DNA of 64,000 nt, from NCBI GenBank assembly GCA_028283655.1, contig JAPWKE010000003.1, positions 3,286,001-3,350,000 on the forward strand. The letters are read 5' to 3'. The translations under genes and the position numbers were made by a program. Shown one piece after another: positions 5,862-17,129 of this stretch; within the stretch, counting starts at the first letter, position 1, and each line of letters begins with the position of its first letter. This DNA comes from Acidobacteriaceae bacterium. Lineage in GTDB: Bacteria > Acidobacteriota > Terriglobia > Terriglobales > Acidobacteriaceae. The notes beneath the pieces are model-generated. The model was not told where the DNA came from. It ran no database searches and saw only the letters and a list, made by a program, of their open reading frames with translations.

Positions 5862-6102
5862 TGGTTCTCGCTGGAGACGTGCGCCTTGAGTGCCTGAAAG
5901 CCTTCCCTGCGCGGATTTTTGATCCGCCAAATGTGCTTAGGCCTGCGCCCGCGGCCCTGACCGCAACCCAATGTCCCGCGATCCGATCTAACCCAGGGAG
6001 AGCTGTCTGTGTACCAGCCGGTGCACACGCGTCCCGCAGATATTGATTTTCCGCCCGCGTTGGTCGCAGCTCACGCACCGGGCTAATCAGGAGTGCCGCC
6101 TC

Positions 6103-7818
6103 ATGGCTGAAGAAATCGACAAGTACGAAGAAGACGTAGACCGGATCATCGAGACCGGCAAAGACAAGGGATTCCTCACGTTTGGCGACGTGAATGACAT
6201 GATCTCGGGCGACGTGACGAACTCCGATCAGCTCGACGATCTGTTGATGACGATCAACACGCAGGGCATCGACGTGTTGAACTCCGAGTCACGCCGCTCG
6301 CGCCAGGAAATTGAACGCGATACCGAAGAAGTTGACGAAGACTCCGACGACGTCGAACTCGATCTGACGCCCGGCCAGCTGGAAAAGACCAACGACCCGG
6401 TCCGCATGTACCTGCGCGAAATGGGTACCGTGCCGCTGCTGACGCGTGAAGGCGAAGTCGAAATCGCCAAGCGTATCGAGCGCGGACAACTCCGCGTCAT
6501 GAAGGCGATCTCCCGTTCGGCGATCGTGATTCGCGAGATCGTGGGCCTCGGCGAAGATCTGAAGCGCGGCGTCCGCAACATCAAGGAAGTCGTCACCTTC
6601 GACGAAGAAGAGCTGACCGAAGACATCCTTGCGGCACGCGTAAAGGCAACAGCCACGCGCATCGACGCGCTGGTGAAGCACCAGAAGAAGGCCGCCGACT
6701 ACGAAGCCAAGGCTGCAGAGCCGACCGGCAAGGACGCCAAGGCCAAGGAAAAGGAACGCCGCAAGTATCGCTGGCTGATGGGCCGCGAGCTGGTGCAGAT
6801 TTCACGCGTCGTTCGCGACCTGAAGTACACCAACGCAGAAAAGAAGCGTCTGCTCGACCGCGTGAACAAGACGGTCGACTCGATGCGTACGCTCGAGCGC
6901 CAGATCAAGACGCTGGACGCCAAGTTTGACGCGTCTAAGAGCGAAGAGCTGAAGAAGGAGTATCGCCGCCAGCAGAAGAACTGCCGCGTCGACCTCGAAC
7001 GCCTGGAGCAGGACTCCGACATATCACTCGACGATCTGAAGCGCACACAGCGCGAGATGATCCAGGGTGACATGGACGCGGAGCGCGCCAAGCGCGAGCT
7101 CATCGAAGCGAACCTTCGTCTCGTCGTTTCGATCGCGAAGAAGTACACGAACCGTGGCCTGCAGTTCCTCGACCTGATCCAGGAAGGCAACATCGGCCTG
7201 ATGAAGGCCGTCGACAAGTTCGAGTATCGCCGTGGCTACAAGTTCTCGACGTACGCCACATGGTGGATCCGTCAGGCCATCACCCGCGCGATCGCCGATC
7301 AGGCCCGCACCATTCGTATCCCGGTGCACATGATTGAAACGATTAACAAGCTCATCCGCACCTCCCGTCAGCTGGTGCAGGAGCTCGGCCGCGAGGCTTC
7401 GTCGGAAGAGATCGCCAAGCGCATGGATATCCCTGTTGCGAAGGTCCGCAAGGTCCTGAAGATCGCGCAGGAGCCCATCTCGCTCGAGACTCCGATCGGT
7501 GAAGAAGAAGATTCGCATCTTGGTGACTTCATCGAAGATCGCATGGCGGTTTCGCCGTCGGATGCGGTTATCTCGGTGAATCTCAAGGAGTACACCTCGC
7601 AGGTGCTGCGCACGTTGACTCCGCGTGAAGAGCGCGTGATCAAGATGCGCTTCGGCCTCGAAGACGGCTCAGAGCACACGCTGGAAGAAGTAGGCCAGAG
7701 CTTCCAGGTTACCCGCGAACGTATCCGCCAGATCGAAGCGAAGGCTCTCCGCAAGCTGCGTCACCCGAGCCGCTCGCGCAAGCTGAAGGCGTTCGTCGAC
7801 GGTGTGAAGGAAATCTAA
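6103..7818 (+). CDS. rpoD: RNA polymerase primary sigma factor RpoD (sigma-70)
   Basis: 571 residues from the ATG at 6103, which follows an AGGAG site and gives [12 protein letters not shown]. An in-frame start at 6043 would add 20 residues unlike the family. Region 1.1 comes first, then region 1.2 ([21 protein letters not shown]), a charged non-conserved insert, region 2 with [21 protein letters not shown], region 3, and region 4.2 with TLEEVGQSF and [16 protein letters not shown]. This is the housekeeping sigma factor that directs RNA polymerase to most promoters. The 320 bp upstream contain no gene, so it may have its own promoter rather than the dnaG-rpoD arrangement of some bacteria. Confidence 0.97.
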
Positions 7819-7837
7819 GCTATCCCATCTGCAACAC

Positions 7838-7863
7838 AAAGGCCCCGCAAAAGCGGGGCCTTT
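7838..7863 (+). terminator. rpoD terminator
   Basis: An 11-bp GC-rich stem, AAGGCCCCGC type, around the loop AAAA and followed by TTTGTATT. It starts about 20 bp after the rpoD stop. A classic intrinsic terminator. Confidence 0.85.
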
Positions 7864-8004
7864 GTATTGCCCCCCGAGAATCCGGCTTCACGCATGTACC
7901 GCACATTCGATCAAACTCGTCGGATGCATGTGACAGCCGCCACCAAACCTTTCCGCGCAGCCTCGATATACTTTCGGCAACTCGTGAGAGTTGAAGGAGC
8001 CTTC

Positions 8005-10134
8005 GTGCGCTTGCTTTCCCCGCGTCTTCTTGGTTGTCTGTTTTCGCTTTCCTGCTTTGCGATGAACGCAGCCGCACAAGCGCATCCCTCCCCCCACGCC
8101 GACTGGCCTACTTACGGCGGCGATGCAGGCGGACAGCGCTATACCGCCGCGACACAGATCACGCCAGCCAATCTTCAGAAGCTCAAACCCGCATGGACGT
8201 TCCACACCGGCGTGCTGACACAGAACCGGCCGGGCCTCGCAGGCTCTTCGTTTGAAGCCACGCCGATTCTCTTTCATGGCTCGCTTCTGCTCACTTCGCC
8301 GTTCGATGAAGTCTTCTCACTCGATCCTGCTACCGGCAAAGCACTATGGAACTTCGATCCGAAGCTGGGCGACGTCTCCAGCGCGGGCATTCTCACCTCG
8401 CGAGGCGTAGCGGCGTGGCCCCTCGCAACGGATGATGCCCCTCTGCCCGCTAACGCTGCGGCCTGCTCGGCACGCGTCTTCGTCGCCACCATGGACGCGC
8501 GGCTGATGGCGCTCGATGCCGCAACCGGCAAGCCTTGCCTCGACTTCGGCAAACAAGGCACCGTCAGTCTGCTGGGTGACGTTGGCTACAAGCCGCACGA
8601 TCCGTACTTCATGACCTCCCCGCCGACCGTCGTTAGCGATGCCGTGATCGTTGGCTCCGGCATCGGCGACAATCGCCGCGTGGATATTGAGTCCGGGCTG
8701 GTTCGTGCCTTCGATGCCCGCACAGGCAAGCTGCTTTGGAAGTGGGAGCCGCTGCCGTGGGCCGATCGCCAGAAGCTGCGCACCGGTGCAGGCAACGCGT
8801 GGAGCGTGATCGCCGCAGACCCCGAGCACAACCTCGTCTTCGTCCCCACCGGCGCACCCAGTCCTGACTTCTACGGCGGTCTGCGGCCTGGCGACAACCG
8901 CGATGCCAACTCCGTCGTTGCGCTCGACGCGTCTACGGGGCGTCGCGTATGGGGCTTCCAGGTGACGCACCACGATCTGTGGGATTACGACGTGGCTGCC
9001 GAGCCGTTGCTCTTCACGTGGCATGGGCCCGACGGCAAGCAGAACGTGCCGGCCATTGCGATCAACACCAAGCAGGGTATGGTCTTTGAGTTGAACCGGC
9101 TAACGGGTGAGCCGCTCTTCCCTGTCGACGAAAAGCCAGTGCCGAAGACAGATGTCCCGGGCGAAACTTCGTCGCCGACGCAGCCGTTTCAGCGCGTGGA
9201 CTCGCTGGCTCCGTTGACGATTCCCGGCGAGGACATGCTGGGAATGAATGCGGCTGACAACACAGAATGTCGGCAGATTCTCTCAGGGCTGCGGTATGAG
9301 GGGATATACACGCCGCCAACGCTCGGCGGGTCGCTGCAGTTTCCCGGCAACCTCGGCGGCGTGAACTGGGGATCAGCCTCGGTCGATCCCCAGACCGATG
9401 TGCTCTACGCCAACACCAATCGCTACGCCTTTATCGTGCAGCTTCAGCCACGGCAAACCGCGCTCGATGAGTATTTTTCGCATTGGGAAAACCCGCTCTA
9501 CACCTTTGGCGGATTGGCCCTGGTGCTGATTCTCGGCGTGGGTATGGTCAGGCGGCGGTCGATCTACCCCGGGACGACTGCCATGGTGCTTTGCGTTGTC
9601 GTCTTCGGCGGAGCAGCTATCGCCTTTCTCGTCCTGAACCACCAGGACCAGGTCGCACTGCATCAGCGGTCGCACTCCAACACCGAGCACTTCGGCTACG
9701 AGCACAGCGCTCAGGATGAAACGCCGTACTCGATCATCCGCAAGCCGTTCCGCACAGCGGCCGGACACCCGTGCGCGGTGATGCCGTTCGGCACACTCTC
9801 CGCGCTGAACCTGAACACGGGCAAGCTGGTCTTCTCGTCCACCCTCGGAACGCTGAACCACATTCAGCCTAAGACCGGCACCATCACCCTTGGCGGATCG
9901 CTGATCACAGCCAGCGGGCTGGCCTTCGCCGCAGCGACGCGAGAGCCGTTGCTGCGTGCGTTCGACTCTCACACCGGAAGCGAACTGTGGAGCGCTCCCC
10001 TGCCTGTGCCCGCACAGGCAACGCCGATGTCGTACACCTGGCACGGCAAGCAGTACGTCGTGATCGCTGCCGGTGGACACGGCGGCTTCGGGACGCCGAT
10101 CGGCGACAGCCTGATGGCTTTTGCCCTGGAGTAA
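8005..10134 (+). CDS. PQQ-dependent dehydrogenase (glucose dehydrogenase-like) with internal membrane segments
   Basis: 710 residues from the GTG at 8005, which has a GAAGGAG site and yields a signal peptide ending NAAAQA. The upstream in-frame TTG at 7867 overlaps the rpoD terminator and is not credible. The periplasmic beta-propeller has WPTYGGDAGGQRY, repeated DxxTGK.LW blade motifs and HHDLWDYDVAAEP, as in quinoprotein sugar and alcohol dehydrogenases that pass electrons to the respiratory chain. Unusually, two hydrophobic segments (about 499-518 and 521-546, joined by RRR) interrupt the propeller between NRYAFIVQL and the next blade, so the protein may be membrane-anchored from the middle. 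Substrate is not determinable. It stands alone and ends at a strong hairpin. Confidence 0.85.
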   Translation: MRLLSPRLLGCLFSLSCFAMNAAAQAHPSPHADWPTYGGDAGGQRYTAATQITPANLQKLKPAWTFHTGVLTQNRPGLAGSSFEATPILFHGSLLLTSPFDEVFSLDPATGKALWNFDPKLGDVSSAGILTSRGVAAWPLATDDAPLPANAAACSARVFVATMDARLMALDAATGKPCLDFGKQGTVSLLGDVGYKPHDPYFMTSPPTVVSDAVIVGSGIGDNRRVDIESGLVRAFDARTGKLLWKWEPLPWADRQKLRTGAGNAWSVIAADPEHNLVFVPTGAPSPDFYGGLRPGDNRDANSVVALDASTGRRVWGFQVTHHDLWDYDVAAEPLLFTWHGPDGKQNVPAIAINTKQGMVFELNRLTGEPLFPVDEKPVPKTDVPGETSSPTQPFQRVDSLAPLTIPGEDMLGMNAADNTECRQILSGLRYEGIYTPPTLGGSLQFPGNLGGVNWGSASVDPQTDVLYANTNRYAFIVQLQPRQTALDEYFSHWENPLYTFGGLALVLILGVGMVRRRSIYPGTTAMVLCVVVFGGAAIAFLVLNHQDQVALHQRSHSNTEHFGYEHSAQDETPYSIIRKPFRTAAGHPCAVMPFGTLSALNLNTGKLVFSSTLGTLNHIQPKTGTITLGGSLITASGLAFAAATREPLLRAFDSHTGSELWSAPLPVPAQATPMSYTWHGKQYVVIAAGGHGGFGTPIGDSLMAFALE

Positions 10135-10153
10135 ACCGCAATAAGACAAAGAA

Positions 10154-10188
10154 AAAGGGGCTGCGTTCGCGAAGAACGCAGCCCCTTT
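10154..10188. terminator. Bidirectional hairpin terminator
   Basis: Perfect 15-bp stem, AAAGGGGCTGCGTTC with its complement, loop GCGAA, flanked by A-rich sequence on the left and TTTGATG on the right. It sits between the convergent PQQ dehydrogenase and FecR-like genes and can serve both. Confidence 0.85.
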
Positions 10189-10200
10189 GATGTATCAGCC

Positions 10201-11220
10201 TTAGCGATGACCGCCGCCACCACCGTGGAAGCCACCGCCACCACCGCCGTGGAAACCACCACCACCGCCGCCATGGAAACCACCACCACCGCCGCCATGG
10301 AAGCCGCCAAAACCGCCGCCTCCACGATAGCCACCATATCCGCCACGGTAACCACCGTATCCACCGCGATAGCCGTAACCACCGCCGTAGTAGCCACCAT
10401 AGTAGCCAAGGCCTAGCCCCCAACCGTAGCCGGGATAACCAAAGCCCCAGCCCCAACCGGGATAGCCGTAGCCGTATCCATAACCGTAGTACGGATAACC
10501 GGCATAGAAGCCGTCACCGTAATAGCCGTAATCGCTCGCGCAGCCATCGCAACCGCTGTCGGTGTATCCCTGCGGATAGCCCTGCTGCTGCTGACCGTTC
10601 TTCATCGCGACATCCGACGGACCAGCACCACCGCTCCACGGCAGAATGTCGGCCTGCGCCTGCGAGTCATAGAGGTCGTCCGGATGCGGGTGGCCGTTGA
10701 GTACAACACCCTGCCCTTCCTTCACCGTCTTGCCCTCGGCGTTCGCAGGAGCATCCGGAGCGAAGACCTTCGCCTCGCCATGCAGTACGGAGACACGGTT
10801 GGTCTGCGCATTCAGCGTATAAAAGCCGTCGCGGATAAGGTCGACCTGGCCGCCGGGAAGATCGATGAGAATCAGAGCGCCGTCTGCCGGGTTGTCAACA
10901 ATCACGTTCGCCTTACCACTGCTGAGGCGAAGCTCTGTGCGACCGTTGCCGGTGGCGATGGTTTCCAGTTGCGTGTTCGTCAGCACGCGAACGCCCTGCG
11001 CCGGGTTCAGAACATGCGTTGCAATCTGGCCGCGAAGGTGATGGGGACGATCCTGTTGCACCTGTGGCATGGGCTGATCGGCAGCATAGCTGGTCGAGGC
11101 AGAAGCGGACGGCGCCGGGCGCTCAATCGGGGCAGCGTCCTGTACGGGCGACATCTGGGCAAAAGCCACACTGCTCGAGAGAGCCAGCACCGCGAAAACA
11201 AGCTTGTAATTCGGGGTCAT
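10201..11220 (-). CDS. Secreted FecR-domain protein with Gly/Tyr/His-rich tail
   Basis: 339 residues. A signal peptide (MTPNYKLVFAVLALSSSVAFA) is followed by a Pro/Ser linker. A FecR-like beta domain comes next, with GRTELRLSSGKANVIVDNP and GQVDLIRDGFYTLNAQTNRVSVLHGEAKVFAP. The last 115 residues are extreme low complexity: first Tyr/Gly/Trp-rich (GYGYGYGYPGWGWGFGYPG), then four GGFHG units spaced by runs of Gly. FecR domains usually sense or scaffold at the envelope. Here there is no sigma factor next door, so a structural or surface-coating role is possible. The start follows an AGGAG site. At the DNA level the tail is a 24-bp tandem repeat. Confidence 0.7.
   Translation of the reverse strand: MTPNYKLVFAVLALSSSVAFAQMSPVQDAAPIERPAPSASASTSYAADQPMPQVQQDRPHHLRGQIATHVLNPAQGVRVLTNTQLETIATGNGRTELRLSSGKANVIVDNPADGALILIDLPGGQVDLIRDGFYTLNAQTNRVSVLHGEAKVFAPDAPANAEGKTVKEGQGVVLNGHPHPDDLYDSQAQADILPWSGGAGPSDVAMKNGQQQQGYPQGYTDSGCDGCASDYGYYGDGFYAGYPYYGYGYGYGYPGWGWGFGYPGYGWGLGLGYYGGYYGGGYGYRGGYGGYRGGYGGYRGGGGFGGFHGGGGGGFHGGGGGGFHGGGGGGFHGGGGGHR
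10210..10315 (-). repeat. 24-bp tandem repeat coding the GGGGGFHG tail
   Basis: Imperfect copies of a 24-bp CCACC/CCGCC-rich unit encode GGGGGFHG within the 3' end of the FecR-like gene. Such repeats are prone to length change by slippage. Confidence 0.7.
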
Positions 11221-12513: not shown

Positions 12514-13479
12514 ATGAAGAGTCTTTGCGTCGTCACACCGGTCTTCAATGATTGGATTTCCTTTGCAATTCTGCTGAAGAATCTGGATAAACTTGCCAGC
12601 GAAACCGGGCTTTCGATCAAGGTGTGCGCGGTCGATGATGGCAGCAGTGAGCCTGTAGAGGTCCTGCTGGACCGGCTTCCCCGGTTCCAGTCCCTGAAAG
12701 CTGTCGATATCGTTCATCTCGGCGTGAATATTGGCCACCAACGCGCCATCGCAGTAGGGCTCTGCACGGTCGTGGAGCAAAACGCATGTGAAGCCGTTGT
12801 AGTGATGGATGCCGACGGCGAAGACATGCCAGAGGCTATTCCCCGGTTGCTGAATGCGGCTAAAGACTCTGAGAGTTTCTGCGTAGTGGCGCAGCGACGA
12901 CGGCGCACAGAGGCGCTCGTCTTCCGCACCTCATACATCCTCTACAAGATGCTGTTTCTCGTTGTGACGGGAAGAAAGATTAGCTTCGGAAATTTTTCGG
13001 TGATGTCGATCAGTCAGGCACGCCGTCTCACGCTCGTTTCGGAACTCTGGAACCATCTACCTTCCGCGATCCTGCGCTCGCGCATCCCCATCACGCAGGT
13101 TCCTGTAGACCGGGGCTATCGCTATGATGGCAAATCAAAGATGAACTTTGTCTCACTGATCGTGCATGGACTAAGCGGTATCTCCGTCTATGCTGATGCG
13201 ATCTTTGTTCGCTTGCTGCTGTTGTCGGTGATCTTCGCCGGTGGCACTGTGCTTGCCATCTTTGCAGTAACAGCACTTCGTTTCTTTATGCCGCAACATG
13301 CCACACCAGGCTGGGCAACAGAAGTGAGCTTTGGCATGATCATTCTGCTCTCCCAGATCGGTCTCACCGCACTGTCGTCCATCCTGATGCTGCTCAATAG
13401 TCGCGTGCAGCGGCAGGTATTGCCGCGCCTGGACTACAAACCTTACGTTTTGAGCATTCGAAACCTCTTCACGAACTAA
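12514..13479 (+). CDS. Family 2 glycosyltransferase, polyprenyl-phosphate type
   Basis: 321 residues. The GT-A domain begins LCVVTPVFNDW and has VDDGSSEP, the VVVMDADGEDMPEAI motif holding the DxD, and QRRRRTEA. The C-terminus has two membrane segments (around 230-255 and 275-295), as in DPM1/GtrB-type enzymes that transfer a sugar from a nucleotide donor to a polyprenyl-phosphate carrier at the inner membrane. Two polytopic GT-C-like genes follow at once, so the sugar-lipid made here may be their donor. Start ATG overlaps the end of a non-coding ORF only; the spacing to the next gene is about 40 bp. Confidence 0.85.
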   Translation: MKSLCVVTPVFNDWISFAILLKNLDKLASETGLSIKVCAVDDGSSEPVEVLLDRLPRFQSLKAVDIVHLGVNIGHQRAIAVGLCTVVEQNACEAVVVMDADGEDMPEAIPRLLNAAKDSESFCVVAQRRRRTEALVFRTSYILYKMLFLVVTGRKISFGNFSVMSISQARRLTLVSELWNHLPSAILRSRIPITQVPVDRGYRYDGKSKMNFVSLIVHGLSGISVYADAIFVRLLLLSVIFAGGTVLAIFAVTALRFFMPQHATPGWATEVSFGMIILLSQIGLTALSSILMLLNSRVQRQVLPRLDYKPYVLSIRNLFTN

Positions 13480-13518
13480 CACTCTCCACACCCGTTGAGA
13501 ATTAGGAGGGATTCCCTT

Positions 13519-15270
13519 TTGAAGCACCGTGCGCAACAACTCTTGCCCTTGCTGCTATGCGTAGCATTTCTGCCGCTCTGCGCCCTCTTCCTCCATCCGT
13601 GGGTCGAAATAGGCATCGTCGACGATTTCTCTTATGTGCGCACCGCGCAGGTGCTGGCGAACACAGGGCATATCGTCTACAACGGCTGGGCTACCGCGAT
13701 GCTCGGCTGGCAACTCTACGTTGGCGCGTTGATGATCAAGCTCTTCGGCTTTTCTTTCGCCGCTGCACGCGTGGGAACGCTGCTGATGTCGATGGTGACG
13801 GCGGCACTTATGCACCGCCTACTGGTACGTCTCCGTATCACTCCCTGGAACGCTGCAGCGATCACGCTCGCCTTCCTCGCCTCAGCCACATGGCTGGCCG
13901 TGACCTTCAGCTTCATGAGCGATGTCTATGGAATGGTCGCGATGCTGCCTTGCATTTACGGCTGCGTTCGCGCGCTTCAGACCACGGAAGAATCGCATGC
14001 AGCCTATTGGCTCTGCTTTGCCGCAGTGTTCAACACCGTCATGGGTACAGCAAGACAGATTTCCTGGCTAGGCGTACTCGTGATGGTGCCGTGCACGCTT
14101 TGGCTGCTGCGTCGAAATCGTAAAGCGATGCTCGCCGGGGTTCCCTGCACACTTCTCTGCATCGCCGGAGTATTCGCTTGCCTGCACTGGTTTAACCGTC
14201 AGCCCTACGCCATCGTTGAGCACCTCCTTCCGCCGCAACGGCCTGGCATCAAGCTGCTTGTGATGCGCCTGATCCAGTTCGGCGTACAAGCAGGTTTTGA
14301 GCTTTTGCTGCTGAGCCTGCCACTGTTGATCGCGCTGCTTCCGCTTGCCTTCCGCAACCGACGTGCCATGAAAGCCGCGGCACTCTGGCTGCTGTTTGTT
14401 ATCGTTCGTCTGGCATATCTCCATCACGTGCACAAACTTTTCGTCTGGGAGATCCCTTACGGGTACAACAACTTCTGGAACGAAGGATTTGAATATACGC
14501 GTGCCTATCTCGGCCACGCCCCATTGATGATCACGCCGCTAATGCGACACAGCTTCCTGGGGCTGCTGATCGCTGCGGAGTTGGGGCTGATCGCTCTATT
14601 CTTTCTCCCGACACATACGCCTGTGCCGCAACACACAACATCAGACAGTTCGCGCAAACTCAGCAACTTTGAGCTCCTGGTTTTGTTCGGACCTTGCACC
14701 GTGGCCTATATCGCGCTGCTGATTCCCCGCTACATCCCTGTACCTCGAGTCCTCGATCGCTACATGCTCTTTCCCGAGTTCGTCCTGCTGTTCGTGGCCG
14801 TACGGCTCTATCAGGAGCGTGTGGCTGATCATCTACCCCGTACAGTCTGGCTCTCGATTGCGCTGCTAAGTATCTTTTACGTTATAGGCATGCGCGACGC
14901 CTTCTCGCTCTTCAATGCGGAGGCTGGACTGCTGCACCAGGTGGAAGCCAGCGGTGTTCCACGTCAGCAGATCGATGGTGGCATTCAGTTCAATGGATGG
15001 ACTCAGATCATGACTGCCGGCTCCCTGAACGATCCACGTATCGTGAAGCCGATTGGAACCTACACCCCAATCGAGCCGATAGAGAACAACTCCTGCATCA
15101 CCAATGGAAGCGACGAGACGCCGGTAGTCCACGGAAAATATGTCATCTCTTATGATCCGAACGCCTGCGGAGGAAGAGCTCCTGAATTCGCGCCGTATCG
15201 ATTCCATACCTTCTTCAAACCACAAGAGCGCTCGCTCTACATGGTGAAGGGGCCGGAATACTTGCATTAG
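13519..15270 (+). CDS. Polytopic GT-C-like membrane glycosyltransferase, paralogue 1
   Basis: 583 residues from the TTG at 13519, placed 9 bases after a strong AGGAGG. The protein has about ten or more hydrophobic helices. The first periplasmic loop carries VDDFSYVRTAQVLANTGHIVYNGW, with an Asp-Asp pair where GT-C enzymes (PMT/ArnT/GT39-like) keep their catalytic acid. A soluble C-terminal segment contains IDGGIQFNGWTQIMTAG and ends YMVKGPEYLH. It probably transfers a sugar from a polyprenyl carrier in the outer leaflet of the inner membrane; acceptor unknown. It closely resembles the next gene along the whole length, so the pair arose by tandem duplication. Genes are not overlapping but likely co-transcribed with the GT2. 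Confidence 0.75.
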   Translation: MKHRAQQLLPLLLCVAFLPLCALFLHPWVEIGIVDDFSYVRTAQVLANTGHIVYNGWATAMLGWQLYVGALMIKLFGFSFAAARVGTLLMSMVTAALMHRLLVRLRITPWNAAAITLAFLASATWLAVTFSFMSDVYGMVAMLPCIYGCVRALQTTEESHAAYWLCFAAVFNTVMGTARQISWLGVLVMVPCTLWLLRRNRKAMLAGVPCTLLCIAGVFACLHWFNRQPYAIVEHLLPPQRPGIKLLVMRLIQFGVQAGFELLLLSLPLLIALLPLAFRNRRAMKAAALWLLFVIVRLAYLHHVHKLFVWEIPYGYNNFWNEGFEYTRAYLGHAPLMITPLMRHSFLGLLIAAELGLIALFFLPTHTPVPQHTTSDSSRKLSNFELLVLFGPCTVAYIALLIPRYIPVPRVLDRYMLFPEFVLLFVAVRLYQERVADHLPRTVWLSIALLSIFYVIGMRDAFSLFNAEAGLLHQVEASGVPRQQIDGGIQFNGWTQIMTAGSLNDPRIVKPIGTYTPIEPIENNSCITNGSDETPVVHGKYVISYDPNACGGRAPEFAPYRFHTFFKPQERSLYMVKGPEYLH

Positions 15271-15359
15271 TCAGTTGCGCCTGAGAATGAGTTTGCTGAC
15301 AACCTAATCGCTGCTCCAGCGCAACACCCGAACAACTCACGCTTTCTCCAGGAGTGCTC

Positions 15360-17129
15360 GTGTCCCAACGTATTCGCTCGTTGCTACCCACACTGCTATG
15401 CATGCTGTTTCTGCCGTTCTGCGCCATCTTCATCCATCCTTGGGCAGAGATGGCGCAGGTTGATGACTTCTCCTACACGCGGTCAGCACAGCTCCTCGCG
15501 CATACGGGGCATATCGTCTACAACGGGTGGGCAACTGCAATGCTGGGCTGGCAGCTCTATCTGGGTGCGTTGATGATCAAGCTCTTCGGCTTCTCGATGA
15601 GCACGCTCAGAGTCGGTACGCTACTGGTTGCAATCCTCGTCGCGGCGCTGCTGCAACGCCTGCTCGTACGCATGGGCACGACGCCATGGAACGCTGCAGC
15701 CATCACGCTGACAATGATGCTCTCTTCCACCTGGTTAGGTGTGACCTTCAGCTTTATGAGCGATATCTACGGCATGTTGGTGCTCTTCGGTTGCTGCTAT
15801 GCCTGTGTGCGTGCGCTGCAGGCCTCCACTCCAGGACGCGCGGCCATGTGGGTATGCGCGGCAGCCCTTAGCAACGGAGTAGGTGGAACCGCACGCCAGA
15901 TCGCATGGCTTGGAGTCCTGGTGATGGTTCCCTGCACCTTGTGGCTACTGCGAAAGAATCGTCTCGCTGCGGTCACGGGCCTGCTCTGCACCATGATAGG
16001 CATCACCACGATGATCGGCTTTCTGCATTGGTTTAACCAGCAACCGTATGCGCTGGCAGAACACCTGCTGCCACCCCGAATTCCTGGGATAAAGTCGCTG
16101 GTGATCATCACCATCAAGTTCGTTGTCATGACCCTGCTTGAAACGCTACTGCTAGCTATGCCGGTGCTGATCGTACTAAGCCCCACAGCGTTTCGGAGTC
16201 GCAAAACCAGAAGAGTCGCAACCTCATGGATACTGCTTGCCCTGCTCTTTGTAGCAGGTGCCGCGTTGGTTCACAAAGAACGCGCGTGGGAGATTCCTTA
16301 TGGCTACTCCAACTTCACCTACTATGGTTTCGAGTACTACCAGACCTTCCTGGGAACACCTTCGCTCTTCCTGACACCTCTGCTGCGTCACACCTTCCTT
16401 GTGCTTTTGCTCGCTGCGCAGGTGGGCTTCATTGCAGTCCTCTTCACCTCTCGTGAGCCAAGTACCCCGCGTACAGATCGCCCGGTCACGGAACCAAGAA
16501 CAACACTGACAACCTACGAACTGGTCGTATTACTGGGCCCTTGCACGCTGGCTTACCTGCTTCTGCTGCTACCTCGCTTTTCCGTTGTTCTGCTGAACAT
16601 TGACCGCTACATTCTCATCCCACAATTCATCCTGCTGCTGGCTGCGGTACTGCTCTATCAGCGACATGTCAGCCTTCGCCTTCCTCGCACCGTCTGGCTT
16701 TCCATTGCGCTCTTTGCAGCGTTCTACGTTGCAGGCCTGCGCGATACGTTCACGCTCTATCAAGCTCAAGTTGATACGCTGCAGGAGGTCGAGCATACAG
16801 GCGTTCCCCGCGAAGCGATCGACGGCGGCTTCGCCTACAACGCGTGGACACAGATTATGACAGCGGGATATATGAATGACTCACGCCTGCTACACCCGGC
16901 AAACAAGTATCACTACGAGACGCCGGTGATAGATGATGCCTGCCGCACCTATGCAGGAGACCTTGTACCTGTCGTTCACGGCCGCTATGCGATCTCGATG
17001 AATCCGAACTCCTGCGGCGGCGCAACCTCCTTCGCCCCTCGACACTTCTCCATGCTTTTCGCACCGCATGACCGCGTGTTCTACATCGTGAAGGGGCCCG
17101 CGTGGACGAAGCAGACCCTGCTGCGGTAA
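15360..17129 (+). CDS. Polytopic GT-C-like membrane glycosyltransferase, paralogue 2
   Basis: 589 residues from the GTG at 15360, five bases after GGAG; another GTG at 15354 lies too close to that site. The layout is the same as the preceding gene: helix, VDDFSYTRSAQLLAHTGHIV loop with Asp-Asp, many helices, WEIPYGYSNF loop, and a C-terminal domain with IDGGFAYNAWTQIMTAG and FYIVKGPAW. The segments TGHIVYNGWATAMLGWQL and TPWNAAAITL are identical between the two proteins, while the middle has diverged. That suggests different acceptors or sugars. A hairpin about 150 bp downstream probably ends the cassette. Confidence 0.75.
   Translation: MSQRIRSLLPTLLCMLFLPFCAIFIHPWAEMAQVDDFSYTRSAQLLAHTGHIVYNGWATAMLGWQLYLGALMIKLFGFSMSTLRVGTLLVAILVAALLQRLLVRMGTTPWNAAAITLTMMLSSTWLGVTFSFMSDIYGMLVLFGCCYACVRALQASTPGRAAMWVCAAALSNGVGGTARQIAWLGVLVMVPCTLWLLRKNRLAAVTGLLCTMIGITTMIGFLHWFNQQPYALAEHLLPPRIPGIKSLVIITIKFVVMTLLETLLLAMPVLIVLSPTAFRSRKTRRVATSWILLALLFVAGAALVHKERAWEIPYGYSNFTYYGFEYYQTFLGTPSLFLTPLLRHTFLVLLLAAQVGFIAVLFTSREPSTPRTDRPVTEPRTTLTTYELVVLLGPCTLAYLLLLLPRFSVVLLNIDRYILIPQFILLLAAVLLYQRHVSLRLPRTVWLSIALFAAFYVAGLRDTFTLYQAQVDTLQEVEHTGVPREAIDGGFAYNAWTQIMTAGYMNDSRLLHPANKYHYETPVIDDACRTYAGDLVPVVHGRYAISMNPNSCGGATSFAPRHFSMLFAPHDRVFYIVKGPAWTKQTLLR

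Follow-up and report, generated by a model that had tools for sequence, protein, structure and literature searches.

A GTG-started gene in the window, the 64,000-nucleotide stretch of acidobacterial DNA analysed here, encodes by sequence a PQQ dehydrogenase of the membrane glucose dehydrogenase type. Comparison with homologues confirmed that its product bears a predicted in-frame hairpin of two helices within the PQQ propeller. It is proposed, with a probability of roughly 0.55, that the product is a periplasmic PQQ dehydrogenase anchored by this hairpin in the B–C loop of blade 6, with its PQQ face on the membrane and its electrons passing to menaquinone.

Gene and protein family

The features of the gene are as follows.

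7994–7999, + strand: AAGGAG, a probable ribosome binding site 5 nt upstream of the GTG (as read in the sequence)
8005–10134, + strand: PQQ-dependent dehydrogenase gene, 709 aa (GTG start, open frame, PF01011 at 670 bits)
8005–8082, + strand: predicted Sec-type signal peptide, residues 1–26, ending ...NAAAQA (sequence and hydropathy; cleavage place guessed)
8104–9462, + strand: first propeller part, residues 34–486, through blade 6 strand B and the following strand (PF01011 positions 1–450, AF2)
9493–9549, + strand: hydrophobic helix 1, residues 497–515, predicted to enter the membrane (hydropathy; counterpart in 8 proteins)
9550–9579, + strand: inter-helix stretch RRRSIYPGTT, residues 516–525, predicted cytoplasmic (charge pattern)
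9580–9636, + strand: hydrophobic helix 2, residues 526–544, predicted to return to the periplasm (hydropathy; counterpart in 8 proteins)
9721–10128, + strand: second propeller part, residues 573–708, the rest of blade 6 and blades 7 and 8 (PF01011 positions 446–595, AF2 strands)

The open reading frame list gives a TTG-started frame at 7867–10134, but the GTG at 8005 is the likelier start because AAGGAG stands five bases upstream. Counting from this GTG, coordinates 9499–9642 correspond to residues 499–546. The protein scores 670.3 bits against the Pfam profile PF01011, over the gathering cut-off of 26.7, and a whole-genome search with this profile returned a single gene in two stretches, the window gene. 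The best stretch reaches residue 486, which is position 450 of the 595 in the profile. In the genome search, positions 446–595 resume after the insert, at window position 9637, in agreement with the first-pass annotation, which had the propeller resuming behind the helices.

The top NCBIfam model is TIGR03074 (membrane-bound glucose/quinate/shikimate PQQ dehydrogenase), at 627 bits and below its cut-off of 832.65; the match begins at position 145 of 783, and profile positions 1–144 are unmatched in the window protein. The loop of the protein holds no CxxCH motif, and its Pfam scan returned no cytochrome model. Escherichia coli Gcd, to which TIGR03074 applies, resembles the window protein in its propeller, in overall identity (40% pairwise, 37% in a large alignment) and in the key PQQ-site residues; a periplasmic location and a quinone acceptor are presumed to be shared as well. 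The two differ at the N-terminus and in the loop: Gcd begins with a membrane domain and its loop counts 29 residues at the site of the insert, whereas the window protein begins with a signal peptide and its loop holds the hairpin.

Around the gene, a frame at window 6043–7818 resembles rpoD by eye and is directly followed by the PQQ gene. A similar rpoD-like frame near the homologue of genome G016 (L121:3042–4823) suggests an orthologous place. A scan of 7780–10280 for promoters found no sigma-70-like site. Downstream, 10201–11220 on the − strand carries a FecR-like stretch just under the cut-off and a long Gly/Tyr-rich tail. A family 2 glycosyltransferase at 12514–13479 is followed by two tandem 591-residue proteins (13495–15270 and 15354–17129), which are mutually similar by eye and have many hydrophobic stretches and no Pfam match.

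The hydrophobic hairpin

Residues 497–515 (PLYTFGGLALVLILGVGMV) and 526–544 (AMVLCVVVFGGAAIAFLVL) reach Kyte–Doolittle values of 1.97 and 2.81, respectively, in a 19-residue window, and are the two strongest such peaks of the protein. In 17-residue windows, a pair score as high as the observed one came up in 1 of 1000 shuffles of residues 34–709; the two close hydrophobic segments are therefore not attributed to chance. The best segment pair in the propeller part (residues 41–475) scored at most 1.2 across 90 proteins, compared with 1.61–2.44 for the eight hairpins described below. The reading frame is open through the whole insert, which upholds the first-pass description of two helices joined by RRR inside the later half of the propeller. 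A frame error or chimera is out, as no stop interrupts the frame and homologues of 50–59% overall identity share the insert.

The stretch between the helices is positively charged in all eight hairpin proteins, with a net charge of +2 to +5. Lys and Arg make up 27 of 77 inter-helix residues versus 29 of 239 residues in the outer flanks. In L002, L033 and L058, the outer flanks together carry +4 and exceed the turn (+3, +2 and +2, respectively), so that the positive-inside pattern is clear by density but, in these three of eight, not by sum. The turn fits the earlier suggestion that both propeller halves lie on one side of the membrane, more weakly in these three.

Position of the insert in the propeller

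A first AF2 model, from three sequences, was poor (mean pLDDT 43) and drew helices at 497–516 and 522–556. A second model, from nine sequences, reached pLDDT 73 and pTM 0.80, with residues 494–572 below 50 (residue numbers here are the model number plus 24). It matches PQQ dehydrogenases at VIA-align Z scores of 33.8–39.0 (4mh1, 39.0; 1yiq, 38.4). Z values up to 36 are also obtained with other propellers, designed ones among them, and the fold alone is no proof of family. By the second model, the window protein has the eight-bladed propeller fold of PQQ dehydrogenases.

When the modelled strands are read blade by blade, strand B of blade 6 comes before the insert and strand C after it. In the same model, E84, W266, D327 and N454 would lie in D–A loops, K356 and H692 in B–C loops, and N470 in strand B, two residues short of its B–C end. 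By alignment, E84, W266, D327, K356, N470 and H692 correspond to Gcd residues E217, W404, D466, K493, N607 and H775, which we take to be residues that matter in Gcd. In a propeller, D–A and B–C loops lie on the same face; therefore, on this topological argument, the hairpin would leave from the PQQ face, and we read the modelled insert as sitting there. Three further Gcd residues, H262, R201 and D730, are replaced by I129, H67 and E647, which makes glucose doubtful as the substrate.

The insert itself is of low confidence in both models, being helical in the first and partly strand in the second, where weak strands are drawn at 527–534 and 537–544 in the region of helix 2. These strands are the evidence for taking the segments as not transmembrane at all; they would then be hydrophobic strands, or two helices on the surface, packed against the propeller or at a dimer interface. 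We consider this very improbable: the strands have a pLDDT near 30, and two helices are drawn in the first model, poor as that model is; the hydropathy rises to 2.8 over 19 residues; and the Arg/Lys-rich turn is present in eight of eight proteins. Buried propeller strands in particular are unlikely despite the low-confidence strands of the second model, as short-looped homologues share the propeller and keep its sequence without these segments.

Signal peptide and proposed topology

Before residue 34, the window protein has only the predicted signal peptide, whose hydropathy peak of 1.46 at residue 8 is the third strongest in the protein; a multi-helix N-terminal membrane domain is absent. In the first alignment, of 40 proteins, no member has more than one N-terminal hydrophobic peak of at least 1.6, and therefore none shows such a domain. 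It had been noted at first pass that a signal takes the place of N-terminal membrane helices, and this holds: the long N-terminal domain of Gcd is replaced by a signal peptide.

In the proposed mechanism, the N-terminal membrane domain would have been lost, or never present, and the hairpin would have grown in the B–C loop as an anchor. The signal peptide would export the N-terminal half, helix 1 would enter the inner membrane, the Arg-rich turn would stay in the cytoplasm, helix 2 would return, and the C-terminal half would close the propeller in the periplasm. The loop lies on the face with the PQQ residues, and the hairpin would therefore hold that face against the membrane. Electrons of an oxidised sugar or alcohol would pass from PQQ to a membrane quinone, namely menaquinone. 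The gene, its open frame, the insert, the recurrence of the insert in homologues, its charge pattern and its place in the propeller chain are observed; that the insert enters the membrane, that PQQ occupies its site and comes close to the bilayer, and that menaquinone is the acceptor, we infer.

Hairpin homologues and their spread

An alignment of homologues, the check suggested at first pass, showed that the hairpin recurs at the same place in eight proteins from seven genomes: the window protein, L002 and L033 (both from G011), L003, L004, L005, L006 and L058. In a survey of 93 aligned proteins, with the window protein and Gcd included, 8 carry the hairpin, 14 carry CxxCH in the loop and 71 carry neither, although these proteins were picked by best match and the proportions are not prevalences. 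The 71 have loops of 6 to 54 residues (29 in Gcd). The survey took one frame per locus and a few of its rows are fragments; L052–L057, L081 and L106 were removed as duplicates, L027–L032 were left out and L112–L116 came later. Two relatives of the same order, L017 and L020, have Gly/Arg-rich loops of about 50 residues.

Searches for the spread of the hairpin used a profile of its region built from seven rows. In the family, class and phylum searches, no more than eight candidates per genome were scored, and the counts are lower bounds. Continuous matches to the hairpin were found in at least 7 of 398 genomes of the family. Within the genus, 6 of 28 genomes carry it and the other 22, some of them incomplete, show none; one further hairpin genome comes from another genus. 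The class search (399 genomes) showed no hairpin outside the genus, G229 not being among the matches listed. Besides the hairpins of G002 and G000, it gave seven continuous matches; the five that were read (L082, L090, L092, L093 and L105) have CxxCH, and the other two are in G679. In the phylum search (396 genomes), the only hairpin was that of the window, the others being a CxxCH protein (L127) and a short loop (L128). Among plasmid records, 588 gave a match, none at 60% identity or above, and a search of genome contigs for related loci gave two relatives only, one cut by the contig end. Several IMG/VR contigs filed as viral carry PQQ dehydrogenase genes (L107–L111 and L115) and are probably host DNA.

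The hairpin sequence drifts fast. In five of the six pairs compared, the insert is 21–36% identical versus 54–69% for the propeller, and hydrophobicity is kept. The close pair L003/L004 is 85% identical in the insert versus 94–98% in the propeller, with 10 codons replaced and 4 silently changed among the 69 of the insert. In a seven-row alignment, the single invariant helix residue is a Phe near the end of helix 2, and the helices show no residue pattern suggesting a quinone site. Judged by these sequences, the insert behaves as an anchor would, with fast drift and constant hydrophobicity.

The same observations feed a competing explanation, in which the hairpin only keeps the enzyme at the inner membrane and a cytochrome c, soluble or in the membrane, takes the electrons in place of direct transfer to quinone. 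Fast drift without a conserved polar residue suits a plain tether, and the family also lives with other arrangements, as seen in relatives whose loop is short or carries a cytochrome domain. Furthermore, the midpoint potential of menaquinone lies below that of PQQ, so that menaquinone is a poor thermodynamic match and a less favourable acceptor than ubiquinone. Against this stands the modelled exit of the hairpin on the PQQ face, an odd place for a mere tether. In addition, the closest characterised relatives reduce ubiquinone, according to the accessible part of PMC9171043. A pure tether is judged unlikely, if the strongest of the competing explanations.

Quinone and PQQ supply

The first-pass annotation had set the propeller perhaps next to ubiquinone; the genomes point elsewhere. 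UbiG is over its cut-off in none of the seven hairpin genomes (2 of 14 controls), whereas MqnC, which we take to mark menaquinone synthesis by the futalosine route, is over its cut-off in six of seven, including that of the window; G016 falls below. MenD is over its cut-off in none of the seven. The MqnC matches suggest menaquinone rather than ubiquinone in the hairpin genomes. The transfer of electrons to ubiquinone by the periplasmic domain of E. coli Gcd is the subject of Elias et al. (2001), by its title as listed in the references of PMC8348568.

PqqB, PqqC and PqqE are all below their cut-offs in the genome of the window, and therefore the enzyme either depends on outside PQQ or has none. 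PqqB is over its cut-off in two of the seven hairpin genomes (G002 and G022), and PqqC in the same two of six tested. No genome was over the PqqE cut-off, the 14 controls included, so that this absence carries no positive control. In the portion of a 2025 study available to us (PMC12124388), the importer PqqU is reported in Acidobacteria only from Vicinamibacteria; the same text describes E. coli, too, as relying on imported PQQ.

These gaps in PQQ synthesis favour a decayed or cofactor-free quinoprotein, which would no longer bind PQQ in this organism and whose hairpin would have some other membrane role. An acidobacterial empty-quinoprotein model exists (TIGR04528, group A), which the window protein matches at 231 bits, below the cut-off of 650. 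Moreover, the G229 homologue (L117:6435–8523) is split over two overlapping frames, as a broken gene or a sequencing error. Nevertheless, the residues matching Gcd E217, W404, D466, K493, N607 and H775 are kept, the frame is whole in seven of eight hairpin copies, and the imported PQQ of E. coli offers a precedent. Decay is held to be improbable. For the binding of PQQ and a metal ion, the site residues are in place, although no PQQ synthesis gene of the genome is over its cut-off.

Other ways of joining a quinoprotein to the membrane

In the part of PMC9171043 that is accessible, membrane quinoproteins are described as an N-terminal membrane domain plus a catalytic domain. The same text provides a partial parallel in SldA/SldB, the polyol/glycerol dehydrogenase of acetic acid bacteria, where a hydrophobic part outside the catalytic propeller ties the quinoprotein to the membrane; SldB is a separate hydrophobic protein, to judge from titles in its reference list. 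The membrane part of the window protein instead lies inside the propeller chain.

Type II quinohaemoprotein alcohol dehydrogenases (1yiq, 1kv9, 1kb0) have a cytochrome at the C-terminus and, to our knowledge, no membrane helices. They share the propeller fold with the window protein (Z 37–38). A further likeness is an electron-exit module facing PQQ: in the accessible text of PMC8348568, PQQ faces the cytochrome domain. That domain sits on a flexible linker in the same account, whereas the insert of the window protein lies within a loop.

A cytochrome at the same loop

Fourteen relatives, 29–35% identical to the window protein, carry CxxCH in the loop (L015, L018, L019, L024, L026, L038, L046, L062, L082, L090, L092, L093, L105 and L111). 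In Pfam scans of L015, L024 and L038, a cytochrome (PF13442) lies inside PF01011. The best PF01011 stretch ends at positions 450, 451 and 453 in these three, and at 450, 451 and 448 in the hairpin proteins of the window, L002 and L006. These acidobacterial quinohaemoproteins thus belong to the same family and have their insert at the same profile position (450–453), but the insert is a cytochrome and they stand on a separate branch, whereas the window protein has a hairpin.

In a 24-row tree from which the loop columns were left out, one branch (93/90) unites the eight hairpin proteins with L034 and L035. This branch stands beside six proteins with loops of 40–54 residues, and all sixteen group together (100/99). 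L034 and L035 lack the hairpin and are nested within its branch; their genomes, G002 and G022, also carry the hairpin proteins L004 and L003, respectively. The hairpin proteins as one clean clade were rejected (AU test, p 2.8e-54), L034 and L035 lying inside. One gain and one loss would be the simplest account of these sequences, further gains or losses being possible. The eight CxxCH proteins (of 14) included in a 49-row tree form a separate branch (100*). As hairpin and CxxCH fall in separate branches, the two inserts arose separately at one place.

The sister clade (L009, L010, L036, L037 and L059) has loops of 49–54 residues without transmembrane helices. Their Trp-rich and Lys/Arg-rich stretches may be amphipathic, and such a loop is perhaps a forerunner of the hairpin.

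Implications

The family is known, and the place and form of the anchor are new; a literature search by title and abstract opening, with few subscription papers, found none about a hairpin or a cytochrome inside the propeller. More tentatively, the B–C loop of blade 6 may be an evolutionary socket over PQQ, filled by cytochrome c in one clade and by a transmembrane hairpin in another. The hairpin would then be a new quinone-reducing design, threaded through the propeller, which clamps the redox face on the bilayer and replaces the N-terminal membrane domain.

The window protein raises the question of how such an enzyme can function in an organism with menaquinone and, seemingly, no PQQ synthesis of its own. 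If the socket reading is true, an exchange of what one surface loop contains could change the way in which a PQQ dehydrogenase hands on its electrons, and a single genus offers natural examples of each state: a short loop (L012), a cytochrome (L018) and a hairpin (the window protein). It would also provide a compact natural design for tying a sugar-oxidising propeller to the membrane via its redox face.
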